Notes under the pieces: generated by a model
Seen by the model: only the letters and a program-made list of their open reading frames with translations
What the model was told of the DNA's origin: nothing
Databases searched by the model: none
Origin: Phycisphaerales bacterium
GTDB lineage: Bacteria > Planctomycetota > Phycisphaerae > UBA1845 > UTPLA1
Assembly (NCBI GenBank): GCA_022360095.1
Contig: JAKSDK010000668.1
Location: forward strand, 1-64,000
Direction of reading: 5' to 3'
Length of the DNA stretch: 64,000 bases
Position numbers and translations under genes: made by a program
Shown here: piece by piece, positions 46,023 to 59,744 of the stretch
How positions within the stretch are numbered: position 1 is the first letter of the stretch
Layout: the number at the start of each line of letters is the position of its first letter

Positions 46023-46871
46023 CTACAACAAATAGAGCACGGGAAACAGAAAGATCCAAACAAGATCGACAAAGTGCCAGTAAAGGCCGGTGCACTCGAT
46101 TCGATTAATGTACTTCTCGGGCCTCTTCTTCCAGTCCGACGCTCCAGTCAGTACGAAGTAGAGGATCACGACCATGCCGCCGATCACGTGAATTCCGTGA
46201 AGGCCGGTCAGCGTGAAGTAGGTGGCCAAAAACGTGCTGGCATTCGGCCCCCAACGGGTGGCGCGTTTGATCTTGTCGGCTTCGATCTTCAGCTCATGAG
46301 AATGATCGTGCGATTCGGTCGGGTCGGAATGAATCAGAAGATAGCCGTCTTCCTCCCACGTGCCGAAGTTCTCGGCGTGGCCGTTCACGACGGCGATTTT
46401 TCGTTCACCCTTGTCGGTTTTGCTGGTGATGACTTTTTCGCCGTCGACTCCCAACGGCTCCTTCAAGACGACCTGATGATGGGTGAACTTGCCTTTGTAC
46501 TCAAAGAACTTGATGACGAGGAACACACCGGCCAGGGCAAACGTAATGAACAAGAACATGCGCCCTTTGGCGAAGTTGTTCATTTTAAGAGCCGCCCAGG
46601 ACAACACCATGGTGACACTCGACGTGATCAGCACGAGCGTGTTCACAAAGGCAAGGCTGACATTCAGAATCTGATTGCCGGTGGTGATTTCCTGCCCGTA
46701 CATGGGCCACGTCCCCTCCGGCGCTCCGACTCTAAGCAAGACATAGGTCGAGAAGAGCGCGCCGAAGAGCATGACCTCCGAGGCCAGAAACAGCCAGATG
46801 CCAAACTTGCCGTTGTACATCCCGGTCAGGGGATGCGGCTCCATATCGTGGGGAATCGCGACGTCAGACAA
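46023..46871 (-). CDS. ctaE: Cytochrome c oxidase subunit III with polar insertion
   Basis: A 282-residue protein of the five-helix type. Recognisable parts are KFGIWLFLASEVMLFGALFS (helix 1), ITSSVTMVLSWAALK, FLVIKFFEYKGKF, then FTLTGLHGIHVIGGMVVILY and ECTGLYWHFVDLVWIFLFPV. Between about residues 128 and 205 lies a polar, charged insertion (about 75 residues, with HDHSHELKIEADKIKRA) that most subunits III lack. The start is a TTG with GGAGG 8 nt upstream, located inside the last codons of the subunit I gene, so translation is coupled. Confidence 0.92.
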   Translation of the reverse strand: MSDVAIPHDMEPHPLTGMYNGKFGIWLFLASEVMLFGALFSTYVLLRVGAPEGTWPMYGQEITTGNQILNVSLAFVNTLVLITSSVTMVLSWAALKMNNFAKGRMFLFITFALAGVFLVIKFFEYKGKFTHHQVVLKEPLGVDGEKVITSKTDKGERKIAVVNGHAENFGTWEEDGYLLIHSDPTESHDHSHELKIEADKIKRATRWGPNASTFLATYFTLTGLHGIHVIGGMVVILYFVLTGASDWKKRPEKYINRIECTGLYWHFVDLVWIFLFPVLYLL

Positions 46872-46874
46872 TGA

Positions 46875-48617
46875 CTAGGCCTCCATGACGACGTTCTGCG
46901 GACAATAGTCCGTCTTTTTCTCCGGTACGCTGTACTCGTACGGTCCGCAGTGAACGACGGGAACGGTTTCAAAGTTTCCATGCGGCGGCGGCGACGGAGC
47001 GGCCCACTCCAGCGTGGTGGCCTCCCATGGATTGTCGCCGACCTTCTCGCCCTTCCGAATGCTCCAGAAGAAATTGATGATGAACGGAATCTGGGCCAGG
47101 CCCAGGCCCCAGGCGCCCCAGGAACTCATAATCGTCAGACCGTGGACCACCGCCCCCTGCAATTGTTCCGTCTGATCGAACTGGCGCCGCAACACACCGG
47201 CCATGCCGACGAAAAACATGGGCATGAAGACGGCATTGATGAATACAAATGAGGGCCAAAAATGAAGCTTGCCCATGAATTCGCTCATCTTCCGACCGGT
47301 CACTTTGGGGAACCAATGATAGACGCCGGCGAACAACGCAAAGATCGTTCCGGGAGCGACCACGTAATGGAAATGCCCGATCACATAATAAGTGTCGTGA
47401 AGGTGAATGTCGGAGGCCGTCAAACCAAGAGGCAAGCCGGTGAGCCCGCCGATGGCAAACATCGGAAGGAATGCCAACGCAAAGAGCATCGGCGTGTTGT
47501 ATCGAATGGAAGCGTTCCACAGGCTGATGATGAAGCAGGTCAAAATAATGACGGACGGCACGGAAATGATCATCGTCGTCGCCTGGAAAAAGGTGCTGAG
47601 CGTCGTGCCCATGCCGGTCATGAACATGTGGTGGGCCCAAACGATAAACGACATGAAGCCAAGAAAGATCGCCGAATAAACGAGCGACTTATAACCCCAG
47701 AGCGGCTTCCGTGTGTTACAGGCGATCACCTCTCCGAGGATTCCCATCGCGGGCAAGATTAAAACGTAGACTTCCGGATGGGCCAGGAACCAGAACAGAT
47801 GCTGCCAAAGCAAGGGGCTGCCGCCGCCGCTATAGATGCTCTCCTGCAACTCTCCACTGACCACAAGCCCGGTCGGCATGAAAAAACTGGTGTCTGCGAG
47901 TCGATCCATCAACTGCAAGACGCCGGCCGCCTCCAGAGGCGGGAACGCGAGCAGCAAGAGGAACGAGGTGACGAACTGGGCCCAGACAAAAAACGGCAGT
48001 CGAAAGAAAGACAAACCCTTCGCCCGAAGCTGCACGGTCGTGACAATAAAGTTCACGGAGCCCAACAGGGACGAGGTGATCAGGAGGACCATGCCGAAGA
48101 GCCAGACGGTCTGTCCGGTCGTCGCAATGTTGGCCAGCGGCGTATAAGAGGTCCAACCCGAGTTCGCGGCGCCTCCCGGAACGAAGAAGCCGATCAGCAT
48201 CACAATGCCGCCGACCAGATAGACCCAGTAGCTGGCCATGTTCAACTTGGGAAAGGCCATGTCCGGCGCACCGACTTGCAACGGCAACACGAAGTTCCCG
48301 AACCCGCCGACGGCAAGCGGGACGACGCCCAGGAAGACCATGATGGTCCCGTGCATCGCCCCCAACGCGTTGTAGCCGTCACCGATCAACACACCGTCGG
48401 CATCGACCATGGACTGGCTCAGCCAGGTCCCGATCACCGGAATCGCCTCGAGCGGATAGGCCAACTGCCAGCGCATGATCATCATCAGGCAGAAGCCGAA
48501 GAACAAGAATAACAATCCGGTGACGGTGTACTGGACACCGATGACCTTGTGATCAACGGAAAAAACATACTTCCGCCAGAACGGAAGGTCGTGCTCGTGA
48601 TGATGTTCAGCACTCAT
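46875..48617 (-). CDS. ctaD: Cytochrome c oxidase subunit I, heme-copper A-type
   Basis: A 580-residue catalytic subunit with 12 or more helices. The heme a His is in GAMHGTIMVFLG and its partner in VIGHFHYVVAPG, where the other His binds heme a3. The CuB ligands are His in AHPEVYVLILPAMG (with the cross-linked Tyr) and the pair in VWAHHMFMTGM. The HPEVY Glu and nearby residues fit the A1 subtype, with a D-channel. The N-terminus is His-rich (MSAEHHHEHD). The start at 48617 is chosen over the longer frame (48671) because family similarity begins there. It reduces O2 and pumps protons. Confidence 0.97.
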   Translation of the reverse strand: MSAEHHHEHDLPFWRKYVFSVDHKVIGVQYTVTGLLFLFFGFCLMMIMRWQLAYPLEAIPVIGTWLSQSMVDADGVLIGDGYNALGAMHGTIMVFLGVVPLAVGGFGNFVLPLQVGAPDMAFPKLNMASYWVYLVGGIVMLIGFFVPGGAANSGWTSYTPLANIATTGQTVWLFGMVLLITSSLLGSVNFIVTTVQLRAKGLSFFRLPFFVWAQFVTSFLLLLAFPPLEAAGVLQLMDRLADTSFFMPTGLVVSGELQESIYSGGGSPLLWQHLFWFLAHPEVYVLILPAMGILGEVIACNTRKPLWGYKSLVYSAIFLGFMSFIVWAHHMFMTGMGTTLSTFFQATTMIISVPSVIILTCFIISLWNASIRYNTPMLFALAFLPMFAIGGLTGLPLGLTASDIHLHDTYYVIGHFHYVVAPGTIFALFAGVYHWFPKVTGRKMSEFMGKLHFWPSFVFINAVFMPMFFVGMAGVLRRQFDQTEQLQGAVVHGLTIMSSWGAWGLGLAQIPFIINFFWSIRKGEKVGDNPWEATTLEWAAPSPPPHGNFETVPVVHCGPYEYSVPEKKTDYCPQNVVMEA

Positions 48618-48685
48618 TGAAACTGTCCCTGGTCCTTCGTTTCCTATCGCCGCCGGCTTCTGGCAACTCAATCCAACCCCAAAAC

Positions 48686-49693
48686 CTAGAAATCTTCGAA
48701 CATCTCCGATCCCGCGGTACGATCCTCGATCATTTCCTGAACCCAGGCATCAAAGTCCGCAGGCTCGTGTGTGATGAGCTGGGCCTTCATCGTATAGTGG
48801 TTATTCCCGCACAGTTGGGCGCAAATCACTTCAAGCGGATTCGCCGGCTGCAAGACGAGTTCCGTGTGCCCCGACTCTCGCAACGTGTTAATGAGCTTTT
48901 CACCTTGTTCAAGGTTGTTGCCCAACGGAGCCCCCTTGGCCAGGACCACCTGACCGCTCCTGTCCTGATAATCCTCCACCGCCACATGATGACGGATGCG
49001 ACGCCATTTGATCTTGTCGATCGGGTAGGTCTGCGTCATCGATTCCTTGAGCTTGGCGGTCGTGGCGTCCTTCTTGACCTTGAACCAGACCGGAATCTCC
49101 ATGCCGGGAATCGAATCCTGTTTGACGCGCATCGTCGGAATGGCAAACGAATGAATGACGTCCTTGGAAGTGATCCGCACGTAGATGTCCTTGCCGACAG
49201 GCAGATGCATCTCCTGAGAAAAAACGTCATCCTTGGCATCCTCGTTTTCCCAATCGATGCCCAGAGGATTGGTGGCCGTGTCGATCAGGGCGGCGTCTGT
49301 CCGACCGAACTTGCCGTCGGGACCGGGATAATGGAAGTTCCACTGAAACTGCTCGCCCACGACGCGGATCTCACACCGATCCGCCCCCGCATCGGGCGGC
49401 TCGTTCTTGTACCAATCCCAAACCGGCATCGAGAGTCCAACGAGGAGGAATGCCTCGAACACGCCTACGGCGATCTCAACATACTTGGAGATCTTGCCTT
49501 TGACTGGATTGTAAACAGCCTTGTGGCCGCCTCGTTGTCGGAAACGGACGAGGCAGTACACGAAAAAAATGCCCCACCCGACAAAGAGCGCGAGCATAAA
49601 CCAATGCACGACTGAAATCAGATGGTCGATTTCGCCGCCATGCTCCGAGAGCATCGGCGGAAACCAAGCCCCATAGGTAGACTCCGCAAGCAT
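48686..49693 (-). CDS. ctaC: Cytochrome c oxidase subunit II with CuA site
   Basis: A 335-residue protein. Two transmembrane helices (about 25-50 and 70-95) are followed by the periplasmic cupredoxin domain. The CuA ligands are His in DVIHSFAIP and the cluster CAQLCGNNHYTM (Cys, Cys, His, Met, with Gln at the position often Glu). Residues about 190-280 hold an insertion between the beta strands (IKWRRIRHHVAVEDYQDRSG) longer than usual. There is no cytochrome c domain at the end, unlike caa3-type enzymes, so electrons must come from another carrier. First gene of the oxidase block; it lies 68 nt upstream of subunit I. Confidence 0.95.
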   Translation of the reverse strand: MLAESTYGAWFPPMLSEHGGEIDHLISVVHWFMLALFVGWGIFFVYCLVRFRQRGGHKAVYNPVKGKISKYVEIAVGVFEAFLLVGLSMPVWDWYKNEPPDAGADRCEIRVVGEQFQWNFHYPGPDGKFGRTDAALIDTATNPLGIDWENEDAKDDVFSQEMHLPVGKDIYVRITSKDVIHSFAIPTMRVKQDSIPGMEIPVWFKVKKDATTAKLKESMTQTYPIDKIKWRRIRHHVAVEDYQDRSGQVVLAKGAPLGNNLEQGEKLINTLRESGHTELVLQPANPLEVICAQLCGNNHYTMKAQLITHEPADFDAWVQEMIEDRTAGSEMFEDF

Positions 49694-49766: not shown

Positions 49767-50654
49767 TTATTCAGACGCGACGGCAGCTTTCTCGTCGCCC
49801 ATGGTGTCCGACGATGCATCACCGGACTGGACCGACGACGCCAAAATCGTTCGAGAAGGCTGTGCGGCCGAGGCCGACTTCTTGCTCATCTTAACCTCGA
49901 TCTCTTTAGTTTCGCCGTCGCCGACTTTGACTTTCTGGCTGACCGTGCCGAGCTTCTCGTGCCAGGCCACGATTTCATATTCGCCTGCCGGAAGTTCCTT
50001 GATCTCGAAGCAGCCGCGCTTGGACTTGTCGCCACCGTCCGACTCGTGCGAAACCGTCACATCGAAAAACGGATGGGGCATCACGTGACACCAGGCGTTC
50101 ATCCAGGGATGGACGTCGCATTTGATCTTGATCGCCATCTCGGGGCGAGTGAACGTCTGGGCTCCTTTTCTTTGCAGGACTCCCATTTTCGGCTGGCTGA
50201 TGTTGAACTCGGAGTTTTTCTTGGGCAAGGCGTGAATGTTGTGAGCGGTCGGGTCGCTGCTCTTGATGTGCAACTCCTGACCCGCCACCATGCCGAACAC
50301 ATGGGGGTAGTACACGCAACCCTTCTGATCGATCAAGGCCGCGTCCTTCGGCGGATCATACCGGTCCTTGATGTTCTTGACATAAACGAAGGCGTACGGG
50401 ACTGCGTTGCCCTGGCCTTTGTAAATGATCGTGCCTTGATCCGGAACTTTCTTTTTCGTCTTCGCATGGGCGTTCTGGCAGAACTGGTCCTTGTTGACGG
50501 GAATCACGCCGGTCTTTCCGGGATCGCCTTCCAAAACAACCTTACCCTTGATGACCGCAGTTCCCTTCGGCCCGTCGGCAGCAGCCGACCTTGGAAGCAG
50601 CGCTAAGACGAGCCCGGCGGCCACAACACCCAGTAAAAACCTTTTTGCAATCAT
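49767..50654 (-). CDS. Exported cupredoxin-like copper protein
   Basis: A 295-residue exported protein (signal MIAKRFLLGVVAAGLVLALL, cleavage after SAAA). A cupredoxin-like domain (about 30-200) shows possible type 1 copper ligands: His in PTAHNIHALPKK, and Cys, His and Met in IKCDVHPWMNAW. The C-terminal part (about 200-265) looks like a carboxypeptidase regulatory-like beta domain (RGCFEIKELPAGEYEIVAWH). The tail is Ser/Ala-rich. It resembles planctomycete methylamine-utilisation-like proteins. Lying between the multiheme cytochrome and oxidase genes, it may carry electrons to CuA, or have a copper delivery role. AAGGAG precedes the ATG. Confidence 0.75.
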   Translation of the reverse strand: MIAKRFLLGVVAAGLVLALLPRSAAADGPKGTAVIKGKVVLEGDPGKTGVIPVNKDQFCQNAHAKTKKKVPDQGTIIYKGQGNAVPYAFVYVKNIKDRYDPPKDAALIDQKGCVYYPHVFGMVAGQELHIKSSDPTAHNIHALPKKNSEFNISQPKMGVLQRKGAQTFTRPEMAIKIKCDVHPWMNAWCHVMPHPFFDVTVSHESDGGDKSKRGCFEIKELPAGEYEIVAWHEKLGTVSQKVKVGDGETKEIEVKMSKKSASAAQPSRTILASSVQSGDASSDTMGDEKAAVASE

Positions 50655-50813: not shown

Positions 50814-53800
50814 CTACTCAAAATCGAACTCCACAGCCTCTTCTTCCTCGCCTTCAGAGCCTTCCGAATCGAAGTCGAATTCGACGTCGCCCTCCTGTGT
50901 CTTTTCCTGTGTCTTCTCTGCCCCCCCGGGCTGAATCGCAGTGTAGTTCCGCTCACCGAGCCAATAGATGAAATCAAGCAAGAGATCGGCCTGCTCACGG
51001 TTGGTTTTGCCGTACTTGGCCTCCTTCTCCTTGCGAGCCTCTTCGTCGCCGAACGTCGCAAACGCACTCTTTCCGTCGGGGAAAATCTGGGGCATGTTGG
51101 CACCCGGTTGAATCGCCTGAGGATCGTGGACCCAGTTGTAGACCCAGTCCCGACTCAGCCGTTTGCTCGTCAACGCAAAATTCGGAGCCAGAATGACCTC
51201 GGACGTGCCGGGAACGCTCGGGTCACCGGCCACGTGGCACGCCAAACATCCCTGCTCATAGAACAATTCCTCGCCCAGCTTGAACCGTTCTTCGCTGAAC
51301 GGCCTGACACCGCTCTCGGCAAACGGATAATCCGCGTCGAAGGCTGACGACAGAAACCGGCTTCTGTTCATGATCTTCGTAAACGTCGGCGCGAGCGTCT
51401 CCGCCTCCTCTGCTTCCGTCCGAGCATAGGATGTATCGAAGTCGTACTGACCTACCTGATTATGTGCCAGGGCGTACCGCTTGAAAAACGCGGCCGAGTC
51501 CGCAAGTTTCTCATCAGCGAACCAGTGAGTTTCCGCCGCCGAATCACCCTCAGCATGCACTTGCTTCAGATACTTCACAACAGGGGTCATTTTCTCTTCG
51601 AGCAACCCGGATTCGTACTGGCTCAATCCCGCAAAGTATTCCACGAGCGTCGTCGCGTCCTCCGTATCAAGATAGAAACTAGGCATCCGTGCATTGAGCC
51701 AAGGCCGTAACATCTCGACATTGTTCAGGAAATTAAACAGCCAGGCGTGCTGAATCTTCGCCCCTTCTCCCCACAACAGCGGCGGCTTAAATCGCGGACC
51801 GTAAGGGAAATTGTCATCGACGCTCTTATCCGTGGAGTAATACTGGTGAATGGCCGCTTCGCGATTACCCTCGATCGTATGGCAACCGATGCAGTTCAAC
51901 TCATGAGCCAGGGCGCGCCCTCGGGCGATCCGCCCGACGTCCGTATCCTGGTAGTTGACTTTGATGTCCTCGCGAACATTGGCGGCGCGCCGACTCAACA
52001 AGTACGTCGTCAGAGCCCGGGCTTCCTTTTCGGTTAAGAAGAAATTGGGCATCTTCAGCTTTTCATAGGGTTTCTTGATCTTGTCGCGATCGTAGATGCG
52101 AGGATTGCGCATCTTGTGGTAGGCGAAGGCCGCATGGTTATGAAGAATCTCCTGCGGGGTCAGTTCCCCGGAACCTTCCGACAGGTGCCTGGACTCTTCG
52201 CTGACGTCGCGCCGAAGATGTTTGTATTCATCTTCCGGACGATAGATGTAGGCGAATTTCTCCTTCTTGTCCTTTTCTTCCCGTTCGTGCTCGAACACAT
52301 GCGAATAATAGGCAAAATCGAGCTGGCTCAGGAATTTCTGGGCCCACAGGCTCAGATCCGTGCCGACAGGTGTGGAATCCTCAAACCCGGCGATCTTGTG
52401 ACACGAAAAGCACCCGTAGTGAGCGATCATTTTCATGCCGAAAAAGAGTTGCTGGCGATCATGCAGGCTGTCGGATTTCGACCTGATCAGTGCGGCCACC
52501 TTTTGCCGACCGTCGTCTCCACCGCCAAACGAACGATACGTCTGTGCGACGATGGACCGTGTCAACGGACCGTAGGGCTCGGACGGGTCCATCTTTTCAT
52601 CGTTCAGGATCTTCTTGGCGACCTTTTCCGTATTCTGCCCGCCAAGCAACTGCAGAATCAGCCGTTTCATCTCGCTATCGTGCTCCGGCGTGGATTCGAT
52701 CGGCTTCGGATCGAACGTGTCGTGACGTAGCGTCAGAAGGTAGGCCGCCATGTCCATCATGTCCTGATCGTTCTTCAGAACACGCTCTTCCGGCGGGAGA
52801 TCCTGATAATAGTTCTCCCTGAACATGCGTGGCATGACCGTATAAGACGAATAATGCCTCGGGTCCTTGAACCAGCTGTACAGCCAGCGATTTGCATGTT
52901 CGATCTGCTTCGTGTCCTCCTGATCAGGAACCAGCTTCGTGCCGATGCCAGACAACTCAGGACCATGCCGCACGAACTCCGGCGGAACATAGAGCTTGAA
53001 AGGATCGGGATCGCGCTGCTCGATGTCGGCGAGAAAGGTCTCCGTCTTCTTGACGGTCATCGCCTCGTCACGGCGTTCCCGGGTGAAACGACGCACGGCA
53101 TATCGCACGCGCTCGTTCTGGGACATTTCCTCGTATGCCGCCTTGGCTTCCGTCAAACTCTCATCCAATAACGCCTGCCTGTCTGTGCCGGACGGCTTGT
53201 CCTGGCGCTCGTCCGCCTTGGCTTTCGCCTTTTCATGGGCAATGTCCGCGACAATCCATTTTTGGCCAAAGGTGCGACCCTCATCGTCCAGCGGATCACG
53301 GGCATCCAGATTGACGTGGCAGGCCAGACAACCGATCGACCTGAACAATTCCTCGCCTCGCTCAGGGTTGCCCTCGATCCCTTCCGGCAACGACAAGGCG
53401 GCATAGGGTCTGGAGAAAACCTCTAGATAGTGAGCAATCGCTTTGACTTCGGCCTCGGTACGAATCTCGGGATGGTTGTCAAACGACTCTCCCTCGTGGG
53501 CGCTGGAATTCAGATTATTCTCTTGCCTAAAGAAATGCGGCATTCGCGTGGACGGCCGGAACTCCGCGGGGTATTCGATCCACCGTTCCATGAAGCCGGT
53601 CGAAAGTTTGTCTGCAACGTGGGTCAGATCGGTGCCGACCTGGCGAGCGCCGGTCAGGCCGTCGACATTGTGGCAGTTGATGCAGCCGACACGCGTAAAC
53701 AGCTCGCGGCCTTTGACAATGTTATCCGCTTCAGGCAACGGCTCGGTGTGATAGCGTTCGAGGTCATAGATCTGATCATGACACTTGGCACAGCTCGCCG

Positions 53801-55388
53801 AAACGTATTTCGGCTGGAGCATCGGCCGCTCCCAGAACTCTTCCACCGTATGAAACGTCGCGAGCGGAAGACCGGCTTCCGTGTCGTAGTATTTTTCCTT
53901 CCACTCCTCTTTCTCATCGTGACTCTTCGGCGTATGCGCCGCGAGAACGAAATCCGTCTCCTGGCCGCTCCCTTCGTGACAAACCGTACAGCCCATTTTC
54001 TTCATCGGATGCGGTGAGTTCGGTGAAACGAAAAGATCCAAACGAGGATGGGCGGAATAGACTTCCGAGAAATCGACCGTCGGCCGGCCTTCGTGATCCA
54101 GGTACAGATTCATGGCCGCCGAGAGGCTCTTGAAATAGTCCTCTCGCTGCTCGCGACTCATGGCGGCGTAATCCAAAGGCTTGCCATCCGGATTATCTTC
54201 CGGCCTCGGCGCCGCGGCCGCGAGAATGGAGCGAAACTCGAGTTCAATCGCGGACTGAAGGGTCCCGCGATCGAGAGCCTTGCCTTTTACGCTTTTCAGA
54301 ATGTTCTTGGTTTTCACGCCCGGACGGTCAATGTCGTTGAGAAGCACATTCGCAGCGTGGACGAACAGATTGATATACTTTCTGCGGACATCCGTCTCGG
54401 TGCCGTCCTCCGTCGGAGCCAACACGGCGTCCGCGAAATCGGACGTATCCTGAGCCGCCAGGCGTCCGGCCATTTTTCGAACGAGCTTCTCATTTCCGTC
54501 GCGTAGGATGTTTCGAACCCGGTCTGTTTCCAGCGCCGCTTTGGCCTGTTTGACGAAGTTCTTCTTGCTGAAGACCGGGTCATCGATGGACACATGACAC
54601 GTGATGCAACGGTCGGTGACATAGGAATCGATAAAGTTGAAGTCGAAACGGACACTCGGCATGAAAACCTGCTTGACTTCCTGCCGACCCGGCACGCCTT
54701 TCGGCGGTGCATATTCGATGATCGGAAAGTTGAGGGTCCCCCGCACCAGGCCGGGACCGAACATCGCATCCCGGTTCTTCGCGTCGTTCAGACCCTTCTC
54801 ATAGGCGGCCAACTTCTTCTGGGCCGCGTTGCGCTCGGCGTAGAAGCGCTTGAGCATGCCCTTTTTCTCGCGCAGCGCGTCTTCGAGATCGTCCTTTTCG
54901 ACTTTCTTGGCCGCCACGGCCTCGGTGTCCGCTTCGTATTTCTTTTTAAGTTCCACGGTCTTGGGGTGTTCCGGACCGTGAATCATTTTCTCCTCGTCAT
55001 ACATGAAGAGCGTGACGCCCAATTCGGCATTCATGTTGCCGTAAGCCAGGGCGACGCCTTCATGCTTGCCCTTCAGCTCCGCCACTTCCCGTTCAAGACT
55101 CTCGATTTCGCTTTTTGTTTCCGGTGCATCGAGCTCTTCTTTGGCGTCCGCCACGGCCTTCTTCAAAGCGTCGTGCTTCTCTTTTTCCTCAGGGCTTTCG
55201 TACGACAAGGCCGTGAAATGCGCCAAGGCGGAACGAAGATTGAAATAGCCGGTCTGAACCTTGCGCCAATCGCGGCTGTAGTCATGCCACATCATCCACA
55301 TCAACGACGCCAGCCCGATCGCGGACGTGACTGCAAAAACGATGTTGAGCCGCTTGGTGTTTCTGAAAGTGTCGGTCGGTATGGGCAT
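50814..55388 (-). CDS. Giant octaheme cytochrome c, membrane-anchored
   Basis: A 1524-residue protein. One N-terminal transmembrane helix (about 14-34) is followed by a coiled-coil (60-200) and a long multiheme region. Eight CxxCH heme sites occur at 261, 467, 533, 569, 687, 993, 1166 and 1381. Five Met-Pro motifs (RMPHFF 615, VMPRMF 852, KMPNFF 1113, RMPSFY 1234, NMPQIF 1432) look like distal Met ligands of class I cytochrome c domains, so the protein seems to be a chain of fused mono-heme domains. The end is strongly acidic (GEEEEAVEFDFE). It takes the place of cytochrome c1 or f next to the cytochrome b genes, and likely passes electrons to the copper protein and oxidase. Confidence 0.93.
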   Translation of the reverse strand: MPIPTDTFRNTKRLNIVFAVTSAIGLASLMWMMWHDYSRDWRKVQTGYFNLRSALAHFTALSYESPEEKEKHDALKKAVADAKEELDAPETKSEIESLEREVAELKGKHEGVALAYGNMNAELGVTLFMYDEEKMIHGPEHPKTVELKKKYEADTEAVAAKKVEKDDLEDALREKKGMLKRFYAERNAAQKKLAAYEKGLNDAKNRDAMFGPGLVRGTLNFPIIEYAPPKGVPGRQEVKQVFMPSVRFDFNFIDSYVTDRCITCHVSIDDPVFSKKNFVKQAKAALETDRVRNILRDGNEKLVRKMAGRLAAQDTSDFADAVLAPTEDGTETDVRRKYINLFVHAANVLLNDIDRPGVKTKNILKSVKGKALDRGTLQSAIELEFRSILAAAAPRPEDNPDGKPLDYAAMSREQREDYFKSLSAAMNLYLDHEGRPTVDFSEVYSAHPRLDLFVSPNSPHPMKKMGCTVCHEGSGQETDFVLAAHTPKSHDEKEEWKEKYYDTEAGLPLATFHTVEEFWERPMLQPKYVSASCAKCHDQIYDLERYHTEPLPEADNIVKGRELFTRVGCINCHNVDGLTGARQVGTDLTHVADKLSTGFMERWIEYPAEFRPSTRMPHFFRQENNLNSSAHEGESFDNHPEIRTEAEVKAIAHYLEVFSRPYAALSLPEGIEGNPERGEELFRSIGCLACHVNLDARDPLDDEGRTFGQKWIVADIAHEKAKAKADERQDKPSGTDRQALLDESLTEAKAAYEEMSQNERVRYAVRRFTRERRDEAMTVKKTETFLADIEQRDPDPFKLYVPPEFVRHGPELSGIGTKLVPDQEDTKQIEHANRWLYSWFKDPRHYSSYTVMPRMFRENYYQDLPPEERVLKNDQDMMDMAAYLLTLRHDTFDPKPIESTPEHDSEMKRLILQLLGGQNTEKVAKKILNDEKMDPSEPYGPLTRSIVAQTYRSFGGGDDGRQKVAALIRSKSDSLHDRQQLFFGMKMIAHYGCFSCHKIAGFEDSTPVGTDLSLWAQKFLSQLDFAYYSHVFEHEREEKDKKEKFAYIYRPEDEYKHLRRDVSEESRHLSEGSGELTPQEILHNHAAFAYHKMRNPRIYDRDKIKKPYEKLKMPNFFLTEKEARALTTYLLSRRAANVREDIKVNYQDTDVGRIARGRALAHELNCIGCHTIEGNREAAIHQYYSTDKSVDDNFPYGPRFKPPLLWGEGAKIQHAWLFNFLNNVEMLRPWLNARMPSFYLDTEDATTLVEYFAGLSQYESGLLEEKMTPVVKYLKQVHAEGDSAAETHWFADEKLADSAAFFKRYALAHNQVGQYDFDTSYARTEAEEAETLAPTFTKIMNRSRFLSSAFDADYPFAESGVRPFSEERFKLGEELFYEQGCLACHVAGDPSVPGTSEVILAPNFALTSKRLSRDWVYNWVHDPQAIQPGANMPQIFPDGKSAFATFGDEEARKEKEAKYGKTNREQADLLLDFIYWLGERNYTAIQPGGAEKTQEKTQEGDVEFDFDSEGSEGEEEEAVEFDFE

Positions 55389-55430: not shown

Positions 55431-56606
55431 TCAAATGTTGACGAAATACTCGGTGACGGCAACGAAGTACTTCAAGTTAAACATCCACCGAAGCACCATC
55501 TTGATCGGTACGATGAACATCCAGCTCATCAACAGCCAGAAAACGCAGAAACGCGTAAACCCGATCTCATGATAGATTTTTCGGAAGATCGTTTTCGCCA
55601 GAAGCACGGGCAAAACGAAGAAATAACCGGACAGCAGAACAATCCCGGGCGCCTCACGAATCAGGAAGGCCGGCATGTAGCCGCCCAACGCAGCCTTGGT
55701 CGGCAAACCCGGTTTCCACCACTCGAAGCCCAGCCAATCCGGAGTGATGACCCAAAAGACATCGGAAATATTGATGTTCAACAGCGCCGCAGGCCGGTGC
55801 GGGTCCCAGGTTTCGTAAGGACCGAAGATGTTCCAGTTCGGCCCCCGCAGGAATGTGCCGAGCACGATGAGCACGATCCACATGATCATCCAGCCGAACA
55901 TGAAGGTCGAGATGACGAACGGGCGCTGTTTGAAGGTGTAGTAACCGTTCCCCCGAGGATTCTTGTCAATAAAGGGCAAGGCGATCAACCCGACGATGAT
56001 CAGACTGGGCAAGAGCACACCGGCGATCCAGGGATCGAAATAGACCAACAGTTCCTGGAGCCCCAGGAAGTACCACGGGGCTTTCGAAGGATTCGGGATG
56101 TTGGTCGGATTCGCAGGCGGTTCGAGCGGCGCTTTCAAAACAATCGCCCAGACCACCAACACGACCGTGCAAAGCACCATCGCGATGAGTTCCGTATAGA
56201 CGAGATCGGGCCAGACCAGGACCTTGTCGTCGGCCCCGCTTTCGATCAGGGGCTCCCCCTTTTCAAGACGCGCATCGTTGATCGCCGCCTGCCTGAAGGC
56301 GACCCAGGTCACCAAAGCCGTAAAGACGATCATCATGGTGATCGGGATATTGTCCGGCTTGGTGATGATCTTGAAGAAATTTTCATCCAGTGCGCTCCAG
56401 ACATAGAACGCGATGAACAGAAGCGACAATGTGACCGCCACCATCGGCCGAGTCCATTGCCGGTAGGTCAGCAGCCCGATGATCAAAAGAACGACGGTGA
56501 TGGACACGAAATATTCCGGAACGCTCAAGGCATTCAGGGTGTCCTTGATCGTGTCGGAGATGCCCGACTCAGCGGCGGCGAAAACGCTGTGAATGCTGGT
56601 TGTCAT
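55431..56606 (-). CDS. Extended cytochrome b C-terminal (subunit IV-like) protein
   Basis: A 391-residue membrane protein with about eight helices. Residues about 130-250 correspond to cytochrome b6f subunit IV or the C-terminal half of cytochrome b: DLVYTELIAMVLCTVVLVVW, PPANPTNIPNPSKAPWYFLG and LLPSLIIVGLIALPFIDKNP. The quinol-site motif PEWY is replaced by APWY (176-179), losing the Glu. Three extra helices precede this core (30-105) and two or three follow (310-375), which normal subunit IV (about 160 residues) lacks. It works with the b6-type gene just upstream. Confidence 0.88.
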   Translation of the reverse strand: MTTSIHSVFAAAESGISDTIKDTLNALSVPEYFVSITVVLLIIGLLTYRQWTRPMVAVTLSLLFIAFYVWSALDENFFKIITKPDNIPITMMIVFTALVTWVAFRQAAINDARLEKGEPLIESGADDKVLVWPDLVYTELIAMVLCTVVLVVWAIVLKAPLEPPANPTNIPNPSKAPWYFLGLQELLVYFDPWIAGVLLPSLIIVGLIALPFIDKNPRGNGYYTFKQRPFVISTFMFGWMIMWIVLIVLGTFLRGPNWNIFGPYETWDPHRPAALLNINISDVFWVITPDWLGFEWWKPGLPTKAALGGYMPAFLIREAPGIVLLSGYFFVLPVLLAKTIFRKIYHEIGFTRFCVFWLLMSWMFIVPIKMVLRWMFNLKYFVAVTEYFVNI

Positions 56607-56677: not shown

Positions 56678-57463
56678 TTACAACGGGCCCGAAATCGCGC
56701 CATCCTTGCGAACTCGCCAGAAGTGCAGGGCAATCAGCACGGCTGCGACCAGCGGGATGAAAATACAATGCAACACATAGAAACGCAGGAGCGCGCCGGG
56801 ACCGACCGCCGTGCCGCCCAGAAGCAGGAACCTCGCGTCCGAACCTGCATGAATCAAAGGCACTTCGCCGACGAACATCATCGCCGCGCCAGGACCTTCA
56901 TGACCGAGGACCGGCGTAGCGCGAGCCATGTTCGAGCCGACGGTAATCGCCCAGATCGCCAACTGATCCCAGGGCAACAGATAACCCGTGAAAGACAGAA
57001 GCAGCGTCAACACGAGCAGAATCACACCCACGCTCCAATTGAACTCCCGAGGCGGCTTGTAGCTGCCCGTGAGAAACACGCGAAGCATGTGAAGCCAGAT
57101 CGCGATGACCATCGCGTGGGCGCCCCAGCGATGAATCTCACGCAGCAGACCAAGCGTCACGTGCGCCCGCAGGCCAATGATGTCCGCGTAGGCATACTCC
57201 ACGACCGGCCGGTAGTAGAACATGAGCAGGACACCCGTGATGGTTTCAGCCAGGAACAGGAAAAACGTCAATCCGCCCATGCACCAGGTAAAGGACAACC
57301 GAATGCCGCTTTTGCGAACGGCCACGGGATGCAGGTGAAGAAAGACATTGCTCAGGACCGCCATCGCCCGGGTACGCCGATCTCTCGGAACGCCGTGGCG
57401 GAAGACCGAGCCCCAAATCTGACTCTGACGAACGTAATTACCAACCGAATCAAACAGACTCAT
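56678..57463 (-). CDS. petB: Cytochrome b6-type cytochrome b with putative heme ci cysteine
   Basis: A 261-residue four-helix cytochrome b. The heme ligands are His111 and His125 ([15 protein letters not shown]) and His232 and His247, the second pair separated by 14 residues as in cytochrome b6f rather than 13. Cys61 in [10 protein letters not shown] aligns with the b6 Cys that binds heme ci covalently (b6 has FYCLGG), and [12 protein letters not shown] follows as in b6 proteins. It oxidises menaquinol with the Rieske protein and the split C-terminal protein. The gene is followed 71 nt on by the subunit IV-like gene. The b6/IV split is typical of Firmicutes, cyanobacteria and some planctomycetes. 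Confidence 0.92.
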
Positions 57464-57508: not shown

Positions 57509-58585
57509 CTAAACCGGAATCGAGGCCTCCGGATCATTCCACTTGGCCGTATCGTTCGGCCCCATCGCCAGGAATTTCTTGGACCGATCCACAATCACAT
57601 CATCCCCGTCGAGGTAAATCTTGAACCGCTCCAACGGACGCGGCGCAGGACCTTCGAAGTTCACACCGTTCGGCTTGAAGCCGCTGCCGTGACACGGACA
57701 CTTGAACTTCCGATCATTGGGCAGCCATGATGGTATACATCCGAGATGAGTGCAAATGATCGACACGGCGGCGATCCGCTCTTCCTCACGGACAATCCAG
57801 AAGCCGCTGGGCTTGACCGGTTTGTAATCCTCATTGACCTCGCCGGGGGCCATCGCAAGATACTTCGCGAGAGAGCCGCACCGCACCTTCGGGTCCTCAA
57901 CCTCCAGCACATTGGGAGCCATGAAACGGGCAAAAGCCAGCGTACTGACCCCACCTGCCGCCGCCACCGACCCCCAACCGACCGTCAGCGCGCCAAGGAC
58001 GACAAAGTCCCGGCGGCTGGTCTCGTCCTTTTTTGGGCTGCTTTTCTGCAGAACCTTCTGATGTCGGGCATCCGGAGGCAGCTTGTCGGGCGACAGCTTG
58101 GACATGTGCTTGATCGAATCGGGCAAGTCCTGGATACCCTGGTTGATGACGGCATGGCCGCCCCGAACCGTCGTCGCCGCCAACAAGGCCTGGATGGCCG
58201 GATCGACGACCTTCGGCTTGGGTGGTGCGGCGACCTTGGACGCGGGCTTCTCAGGCGAGGCCTTCGCCGCGGCCGTCGCGGGTTCACTTGCGTCCGCCGC
58301 GCCTGCGGCAGGTGCAGCGGCAGGTTTCGGCGCTGCCGGGACGTCCGCCGCGTCCACCTCGACCGTATCAAACTTAATCACATCCACAGGGCATTCTTCC
58401 GCAGCCTCGATGATGGACTCGGTCAGGGGCTTGTTAAATTCGGCATCCAACGCTTCGGGGCGAATGATGCATGTTTCATTGTCATGCTGCACCTCGAAGA
58501 CTTCCGGGCAGGTCGTTTCGCAAGCGTCACAAACAATGCAGCCCGGATCAATCCAAACTTTGGTCACCAGTGCTTTGGTCGCCAT
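57509..58585 (-). CDS. Ferredoxin::Rieske fusion protein
   Basis: A 358-residue fusion. Residues 8-72 are a mono-cluster ferredoxin: Cys16-x2-Cys19-x2-Cys22-x3-Cys26 (CIVCDACETTCPEVF) with the distal Cys65-Pro, matching the Desulfovibrio gigas type. An Ala/Pro-rich linker (75-130) and a polar stretch follow, then an internal twin-arginine motif SRRDF (190-194) and one helix (195-220). Residues 235-335 are a Rieske domain with CTHLGC (278-283) and CPCHG (296-300). The Rieske cluster faces the periplasm; the ferredoxin would stay in the cytoplasm if the internal Tat signal remains uncleaved. GGAGG precedes the ATG by 9 nt. Confidence 0.93.
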   Translation of the reverse strand: MATKALVTKVWIDPGCIVCDACETTCPEVFEVQHDNETCIIRPEALDAEFNKPLTESIIEAAEECPVDVIKFDTVEVDAADVPAAPKPAAAPAAGAADASEPATAAAKASPEKPASKVAAPPKPKVVDPAIQALLAATTVRGGHAVINQGIQDLPDSIKHMSKLSPDKLPPDARHQKVLQKSSPKKDETSRRDFVVLGALTVGWGSVAAAGGVSTLAFARFMAPNVLEVEDPKVRCGSLAKYLAMAPGEVNEDYKPVKPSGFWIVREEERIAAVSIICTHLGCIPSWLPNDRKFKCPCHGSGFKPNGVNFEGPAPRPLERFKIYLDGDDVIVDRSKKFLAMGPNDTAKWNDPEASIPV

Positions 58586-58619: not shown

Positions 58620-59744
58620 TCAGCCCGTGCGGCCCAACAGGTCGGGAGCGGCTTCAAATGCCTGCTCGTCGCTCTTCTTTACCATCGCTTCCAGCGCTGC
58701 TCTCGCGGCCTCACGTACAACATGGGACTTATCGTCACGACTCAGCTTGACGATCAAATCCCTCAAGTCCAAATCATCCAAAAAAGCTGCCGATTTGATC
58801 CCCGCACACAGCCGAGCCTCGATTTCAGCTTCAGTGAGGCGGCGGCGGATACGCGTGCCGCCCGTTTCCTCATAATCCAATTCGCCACCTCGCCCCTCCC
58901 AAAAGGGTCGATCAAGCATATTCATCAAAACCAGTTTTCCGCGTTTGCTGCCCAAACGGGCCAATGCCATGGCCGCATTCCATCGGATTTCGGGATCCGA
59001 CTCCAGCTTTTCAGCCACGCCGCGGATGGCGATAGGATCACCCCGATCGGCCAGCGCCGCAACCACCAAAGAGGCTACGATTTGAACCGCCGGATCCGGA
59101 TCATTGAGCAAAGGATAAACCTTGCCGACCGCTTTTCGAGCCTCGGGCACGCTCGCCATATCCGCAAGCGCCCGCAATGCAAACTGTCGCGTTTTCGCGT
59201 CCGAATCTTCCAGAAAACCTGCCAAGGGCTCGACTGCGCTCGGCGTCTCCAATCGGCCGAGCGCCGTGAGCAAAAACAGTTTTCGAGCATGGCCGCGCTC
59301 CTGGTCGCGACTTCCCTGCCCCTCGCCGCCTGCCTGACGACTCTCATCGAGAATCGTGATGATGCGCCGAGCCAACGGCTCGACGTCTTCGGGAGCAAGG
59401 TACTTCTCTTTTTGCTCCAGTCGCCTCGCAAGTTCCTGAGCGGCCTGCCACGTCTCTTTGGCGGCGGGAAACAACAGCATCCCTCCGGCCTTGTCCCCCG
59501 TATCGACTTCGATTCGGGAGAGGAGATCCTGCATGGTTTCAGGCTTTTCAATACTGGAAGAACCGAACAGAACGACGACCACCGCCACTCCAAGCAGCAC
59601 ACAAACAACCAGGGCAGGGACGACAAAAAGCCGCCCCATGAGCGTGGCCGTCATCGGCGGAACTTGATTTGAATCGGAAACGCCCGTCTGATGGCCGTCC
59701 GCGACGGCAGCGGTGTTTTCCGATGAACCCTGTTGGCTCGACAT
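58620..59744 (-). CDS. HEAT-repeat membrane-anchored protein at the head of the respiratory cluster
   Basis: A 374-residue protein. One transmembrane helix (about 37-60, LFVVPALVVCVLLGVAVVVV) is followed by helical repeats (about 140-360) of HEAT/PBS-lyase type: SAVEPLAGFLEDSDAKTRQF, ALRALADMASVPEARKAVG and IRWNAAMALARLGSKRGKL. HEAT repeats usually hold protein complexes together. Being first in the cluster and 35 nt before the Rieske gene, it may be an assembly scaffold of the bc-type complex. There is no heme or metal motif. A CRP/FNR-like palindrome lies 45-60 nt upstream. Confidence 0.75.
   Translation of the reverse strand: MSSQQGSSENTAAVADGHQTGVSDSNQVPPMTATLMGRLFVVPALVVCVLLGVAVVVVLFGSSSIEKPETMQDLLSRIEVDTGDKAGGMLLFPAAKETWQAAQELARRLEQKEKYLAPEDVEPLARRIITILDESRQAGGEGQGSRDQERGHARKLFLLTALGRLETPSAVEPLAGFLEDSDAKTRQFALRALADMASVPEARKAVGKVYPLLNDPDPAVQIVASLVVAALADRGDPIAIRGVAEKLESDPEIRWNAAMALARLGSKRGKLVLMNMLDRPFWEGRGGELDYEETGGTRIRRRLTEAEIEARLCAGIKSAAFLDDLDLRDLIVKLSRDDKSHVVREAARAALEAMVKKSDEQAFEAAPDLLGRTG

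Follow-up and report, generated by a model that had tools for sequence, protein, structure and literature searches.

A large octaheme cytochrome c as the probable c subunit of a b6f-like Rieske/cytochrome b complex in Phycisphaerales

In a 64,000-nucleotide stretch of a Phycisphaerales genome (assembly GCA_022360095.1, contig JAKSDK010000668.1, positions 1 to 64,000; hereafter the window), the gene at 50814..55388 encodes a 1524-residue octaheme cytochrome c that very probably acts as the membrane-anchored c subunit of a b6f-like Rieske/cytochrome b complex, replacing cytochrome c1 or f and passing electrons from the Rieske protein to a copper protein, to a CuA centre or to both. We assign it to a b6f-like complex, with a heme ci site and an APWY motif, because its relatives are linked to Rieske and cytochrome b genes at 102 of 108 loci and because the genome contains no cytochrome c1 or f above cut-off. 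This genetic evidence gives good support to the c-subunit role, and we infer the heme order, the docking and the direction of electron flow set out below. All features of the window described here lie on the minus strand.

The open reading frame begins with an ATG at 55388, and its stop codon ends at 50814. A motif scan of the protein finds eight CxxCH sites, at residues 261, 467, 533, 569, 687, 993, 1166 and 1381, and these contain all 16 cysteines of the chain; 2000 residue-shuffled versions had a mean of 0.003 CxxCH and a maximum of 1. An N-terminal membrane anchor helix (residues 11-37; 55278..55358) is indicated both by hydropathy, in which the best 19-residue segment, at residue 16, has a mean of 1.81, and by an AlphaFold2 helix with pLDDT mostly above 90. 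Long helices or coiled coil follow (residues 40-210; 54759..55271), modelled by AlphaFold2 as helices at 40-62, 66-86, 89-137 and 142-210. The C-terminal tail (residues 1495-1524; 50817..50906) is strongly acidic, with Asp or Glu at 15 and Lys or Arg at 1 of its 30 positions, has low pLDDT and is disordered in the AlphaFold2 model; such a tail occurs in several close relatives and is not a family-wide feature. The gene starts 42 bp behind a petD-like gene on the same strand. A preliminary description made from the sequence alone had already named the protein length, the eight motifs, the anchor, the coiled coil, the acidic tail and the position directly after the cytochrome b genes, and our analysis bears out each of these. 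It had also counted five Met-Pro ligand motifs: the protein has six Met-Pro pairs, start excluded, five of which are invariant ligand positions across 122 aligned octaheme proteins, and the sixth, at M243, is not conserved.

Conservation across these 122 proteins, which had to contain eight motifs to enter the alignment so that their motif count is no test, identifies candidate axial ligands for every heme. Three histidines are kept almost throughout (H447 in 121/122, H460 in 121/122 and H485 in 122/122), and M616, M852, M1113, M1235 and M1432 are each retained in at least 120 of the 122. The simplest reading of this pattern is that three bis-His hemes at the N-terminal end are followed by five class I His/Met domains, with a presumed pairing of each distal histidine to a particular heme. 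The N-terminal triheme region spans residues 225-555 (53724..54716) and holds the CxxCH sites at 261, 467 and 533 together with the three candidate distal histidines. Behind it, PF00034 (Cytochrom_C) recognizes five separate domains, each on its own above the 21.3-bit cut-off at 23.0-29.2 bits. These comprise the domains of heme 4 (CxxCH 569, Met 616; 53409..53732; 28.4 bits), heme 5 (CxxCH 687, Met 852; 52704..53381; 23.4 bits), which has an insertion and structurally resembles SoxX and Aquifex c1, heme 6 (CxxCH 993, Met 1113; 51969..52466; 23.1 bits), heme 7 (CxxCH 1166, Met 1235; 51594..51941; 29.2 bits) and heme 8 (CxxCH 1381, Met 1432; 50934..51311; 23.0 bits), the last lying in a C-terminal model whose top structural matches are cytochromes c.

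AlphaFold2 models of the two halves of the protein are confident (pLDDT 89.4 and 89.1), and the predicted folds are compatible with cytochrome c. When the C-terminal half is aligned by structure, nearly all matches are cytochromes c, with modest Z scores that include 5.9 for yeast bc1 cytochrome c1 and 5.5 for Corynebacterium cytochrome cc (7q21_C), the latter a weak single-domain similarity, and Foldseek searches with the same model likewise return cytochromes c, with weak E-values throughout. For the N-terminal half, Foldseek and VIA-align gave generic coiled-coil matches alone, which left the triheme part unmatched by structure. A phmmer search of the octaheme protein against PDB sequences gave no significant match, and the QcrC model NCBIfam NF050122 scored 30.2 bits, below its cut-off of 200. 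Other assignments were discarded. An identity as an HAO/OCC octaheme protein is not supported, as the family-model search gave no HAO-type match and five of the hemes sit in His/Met class I domains; HAO-type catalysis was dropped because, by conservation, all hemes appear six-coordinate; and an outer-membrane conduit was dropped because nothing within the operon points to one.

The octaheme gene lies in the middle of a compact operon with the order HEAT-repeat protein, Rieske protein, PetB, PetD-like protein, octaheme cytochrome, cupredoxin-like protein, CoxB, CoxA, CoxC, small subunits, CtaA and CtaB, with intergenic gaps of 3-159 bp from the HEAT-repeat gene through coxC. At its head, the HEAT-repeat protein has an N-terminal hydrophobic segment (58620..59744; Pfam HEAT_2, 54 bits) and occupies the same position in many relatives; this place at the operon head is conserved across several phyla. 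PetB is cytochrome b6-like (56678..57463; Pfam Cytochrome_B, 134 bits) and has Cys61, in the sequence TWCMGG, at the heme ci (cN) position. The PetD-like subunit of 391 residues (55431..56606; Pfam Cytochrom_B_C, 27.5 bits) has the Qo motif APWY, which we take to indicate menaquinol as the probable donor. A motif survey found both the heme ci cysteine and APWY in nearly all relatives.

Downstream of the octaheme gene come, in the same operon, the genes for a type-1 copper protein and a CuA-containing aa3 oxidase, an arrangement that is new. The copper protein is an exported cupredoxin-like protein with a CarboxypepD_reg-like part (49767..50654) and the type-1 copper ligands H138, C179, H182 and M185, arranged in an amicyanin-type C-x2-H-x2-M loop. 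This ligand set is kept in 70-71 of 71 cupredoxin homologs and the gene lies between the octaheme gene and coxB at 28 of 41 loci; the protein is a candidate electron carrier. Oxidase subunit II (CoxB; 48686..49693) carries CAQLCGNNHYTM as its CuA motif and lacks a fused heme; the CuA motif occurs in 40/41 CoxB proteins and a fused heme in 0/41. Subunit I (CoxA; 46875..48671) scores 430 bits with Pfam COX1, and the subunit III-like CoxC (46023..46871) is named from its operon position and from relatives that share the order. In Schlesneria-like planctomycetes (L065, L067, L115 and similar loci), diheme proteins of about 490-510 residues are encoded between the cupredoxin and oxidase genes and are a possible alternative carrier.

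Of 294 sampled Planctomycetota genomes, 79 had a match. We read the neighbours at 40 loci from these 79 and at 80 named loci obtained by scanning a collection, the latter with Acidobacteria, Omnitrophota and one Desulfobacterales among them. The linkage count combines both locus sets, in which some genomes are represented twice, with the anammox loci and requires at least 3 kb of upstream sequence; in it, same-strand linkage to Rieske and/or petB/petD extends over Planctomycetota, Acidobacteriota, Omnitrophota and Desulfobacterales. At nearly all loci the octaheme gene is the sole c-type gene beside Rieske/petB/petD, and among uncut ORFs with at least five motifs, 119 of 121 have exactly eight CxxCH and the other two have seven. 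Where enough downstream sequence was present (97 loci), cox genes lie near in 42 and a cupredoxin gene in 70. At six loci the octaheme gene stands apart from Rieske/petB; petB is found elsewhere in the four genomes searched for unlinked loci of this kind (those of L031, L078, L100 and L129), and at one further locus, L102, petB was not found in the assembly. Within the stretches read at L079, L100, L102 and L117, octaheme homologs occur with no Rieske, petB or petD gene; for L079, L100 and L117, petB is present at another place in the genome. A family designated f53 keeps its Rieske and octaheme genes together and has petB/petD about 10 kb off, and in a Phycisphaerae-like genome (G185) petB/petD are on another contig than Rieske and octaheme.

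We searched the assembly, which is 94% complete, for conventional partners of a Rieske/cytochrome b complex. Cytochrome c1 (PF02167) had no match above cut-off in the genome, with one sub-threshold match elsewhere and none listed for the octaheme protein, and neither cytochrome f (PF01333) nor a small class I cytochrome c of less than 200 residues was found above cut-off. The genome does encode a few other multi-domain cytochromes c (C119, C1146 and C1338). A second Rieske/cytochrome b set, in which cytochrome b has PEWY, is present in the same assembly (L203:1246-9150, on G000:C1828), on a different contig that could be a contaminant; its neighbours, named by sequence reading with no family search, are a 540-residue HAO-like octaheme protein, a Nap-like oxidoreductase and a tetraheme protein. 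A cbb3-type oxidase (L204), named in the same way, also occurs in the assembly. The cbb3 oxidase and the second complex are possible further partners of the octaheme protein.

The octaheme subunit belongs to an already known kind. Genomes that encode hydrazine synthase have eight-heme homologs in operons that match. According to the 2013 genome paper on Nitrospina, the one cytochrome c encoded beside its bc-like operon is an atypical octaheme c, and Kuenenia and Methylomirabilis share this arrangement (PMC3578206). In 2025 Kuenenia complexes were reported, with models, to carry a hexa- or octaheme c in the place of cytochrome f, including a large Kustd1485 whose long helices surround the complex (PMC12954380). 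In hydrazine synthase genomes, whose anammox identity we inferred from HZS-alpha, the homologs have about 940-950 residues, eight hemes and corresponding Met-Pro sites, in operons ordered Rieske-petB-oxidoreductase-petD-octaheme. The window protein matches those of most such genomes with profile E-values of 1e-27 to 1e-34 and tblastn scores of 93-120 bits, in the same heme pattern. Like Kuenenia stuttgartiensis Kustd1480-1485, which combines b6-like PetB, a PetD-like protein, Rieske and a multiheme c in place of cytochrome f, the window encodes eight c-type hemes on one membrane-anchored chain, together with Rieske and a split b6/SUIV-like cytochrome b and with sequence homology to the anammox octaheme subunit as identified through HZS-alpha; Kustd1485 itself is likened by description. 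The two arrangements differ in that the window lacks the NAD(P) oxidoreductase gene of the anammox subset and instead has a ferredoxin domain on Rieske, and in that the window operon, unlike those of anammox genomes, runs on into copper protein and aa3 oxidase genes. The window protein is also much longer, at 1524 against about 945 residues, with much longer insertions between hemes, and its extra length consists of insertions between otherwise shared heme modules. A second, shorter octaheme paralog of 849 residues occurs with Rieske/petB/petD and without the oxidoreductase in one hydrazine synthase genome (L192:6930-9476; G153).

Other systems share parts of this organization. Nitrospina gracilis and Methylomirabilis, likened by annotation alone, also have a split b/b6-type cytochrome b, Rieske and an octaheme c as the sole adjoining c-type gene. 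In the actinobacterial bcc-aa3 supercomplex, as in the window, a multiheme c replaces c1 and the aa3 oxidase lacks a heme c of its own; there the diheme cytochrome cc, QcrC, bridges to the oxidase with two hemes, whereas the window protein has eight. Cytochrome b6f resembles the window complex in its split cytochrome b and in the heme ci cysteine of PetB, and differs in having cytochrome f and a Qo PEWY rather than APWY.

The window Rieske protein has a further feature that is new, a ferredoxin domain fused to its N-side end in Phycisphaerae. This 358-residue protein (57509..58585) consists of a [4Fe-4S] ferredoxin domain (residues 12-71; 58373..58552; Pfam Fer4_13, 32.6 bits), a Tat/membrane segment and a Rieske domain (Pfam Rieske, 36.3 bits), and C16, C19, C22, C65-P66 and R191-R192 are invariant in 23 aligned Phycisphaerae-type sequences. 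We place the ferredoxin domain on the N side because the invariant RR precedes the membrane segment and we assume the usual Rieske topology. In a PetB tree, the fusion is limited to one supported group, whose lone member lacking it (L084) has a Rieske ORF of only 260 residues, possibly truncated, on a short contig. Three genomes of another planctomycete family have a flavodoxin at the Rieske N-terminus in octaheme operons (L070:15927-17213, L208:4911-6188 and L209:16420-17721; Pfam flavodoxin, 70-74 bits), and anammox operons have an NAD(P) oxidoreductase gene for 566-570 residues between petB and petD, a position with no such gene in the window operon. The ferredoxin, flavodoxin and oxidoreductase labels fall on separate branches of the tree. 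Cysteines ahead of the Rieske domain were rejected as further domains in L041, L120, L137 and L057, which appear to be over-extended ORFs, and in L049, where they are zinc-ribbon-like. A literature search, partial and thus weak evidence, found no publication on ferredoxin- or flavodoxin-Rieske fusions. These N-side modules suggest a further function at the opposite face of the membrane. We tentatively propose that octaheme-c Rieske/cytochrome b complexes repeatedly gained an N-side carrier module that might exchange electrons with heme ci/bN, coupling quinol oxidation to ferredoxin, flavodoxin or NAD(P) chemistry, by bifurcation or ferredoxin-to-quinone cyclic flow, in place of a plain Q-cycle.

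With the octaheme protein as c subunit, quinol, probably menaquinol, would be oxidized at Qo, and one electron would travel via hemes bP, bN and ci to the quinone site on the N side while the other passed to the Rieske cluster. The Rieske head would then swing to an octaheme heme, most likely in the membrane-near, bis-His triheme part, and the electron would move along the five His/Met domains toward the C-terminus and be handed to the adjoining type-1 copper protein, straight to CuA of the same-operon aa3 oxidase, or to both, with the long helices tethering the chain to the complex. It is possible, although we consider it doubtful, that the chain forms a continuous wire docking directly on aa3 in a III-IV supercomplex, as actinobacterial diheme cytochrome cc does, and that the copper protein has another job. 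Such a wire is consistent with the great length and eight hemes of the chain, the operon shared with an oxidase whose CoxB has no fused heme, and the absence from the genome of a small soluble class I cytochrome c above cut-off. Against it stands the conserved-ligand copper protein so often encoded between the octaheme gene and coxB, and contact with the oxidase cannot be the general octaheme role because many relatives, including anammox operons, have no nearby aa3 genes. The preliminary description had proposed a cytochrome c1/f substitute that works as a built-in electron wire rather than a small mobile cytochrome. The substitution is well supported by the linkage, the genome content, the predicted folds, the anammox homologs and the published replacement of cytochrome f (PMC12954380), and homologs do adjoin petB-like genes; an uninterrupted wire is an unproven extrapolation, and the conserved copper protein between octaheme and CuA oxidase is the reason for caution. 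The presence of this protein suggests that the path still needs a small carrier or a separate copper subunit to be complete. Nor does the heme number call for the size of the protein, since anammox homologs hold the same eight hemes in about 940 residues.

Readings in which the octaheme protein is not the Rieske acceptor fare worse. Multiheme proteins often reduce terminal acceptors and six loci are unlinked to bc genes, as might be expected of a parallel respiratory conduit, for example a nitrite or extracellular reductase, that shares the operon by chance; we regard this as improbable, given that all eight hemes appear doubly ligated, by the CxxCH histidine and by three His or five Met, with no open catalytic heme, that the protein has a single membrane anchor, and that linkage to Rieske/petB recurs in four phyla. 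Less probable again is an accessory or assembly subunit beside a true c1/f that is a different, unlinked cytochrome c. The very large insertions, the coiled coil and the few other multi-domain cytochromes c in the genome would fit that role, but the genome has no c1 or f above cut-off, and nearly all loci encode no other c-type protein beside Rieske/petB/petD.

The octaheme subunit makes plain how widespread the loss of the small cytochrome c1 or f is among bc complexes beyond those of proteobacteria, actinobacteria and plastids, and its three bis-His and five His/Met hemes provide a fixed pattern for recognizing octaheme bc complexes. The Rieske fusions bear on whether heme-ci b6f-like complexes can trade electrons with soluble N-side carriers, a question that a covalently attached ferredoxin makes testable in a purified complex.
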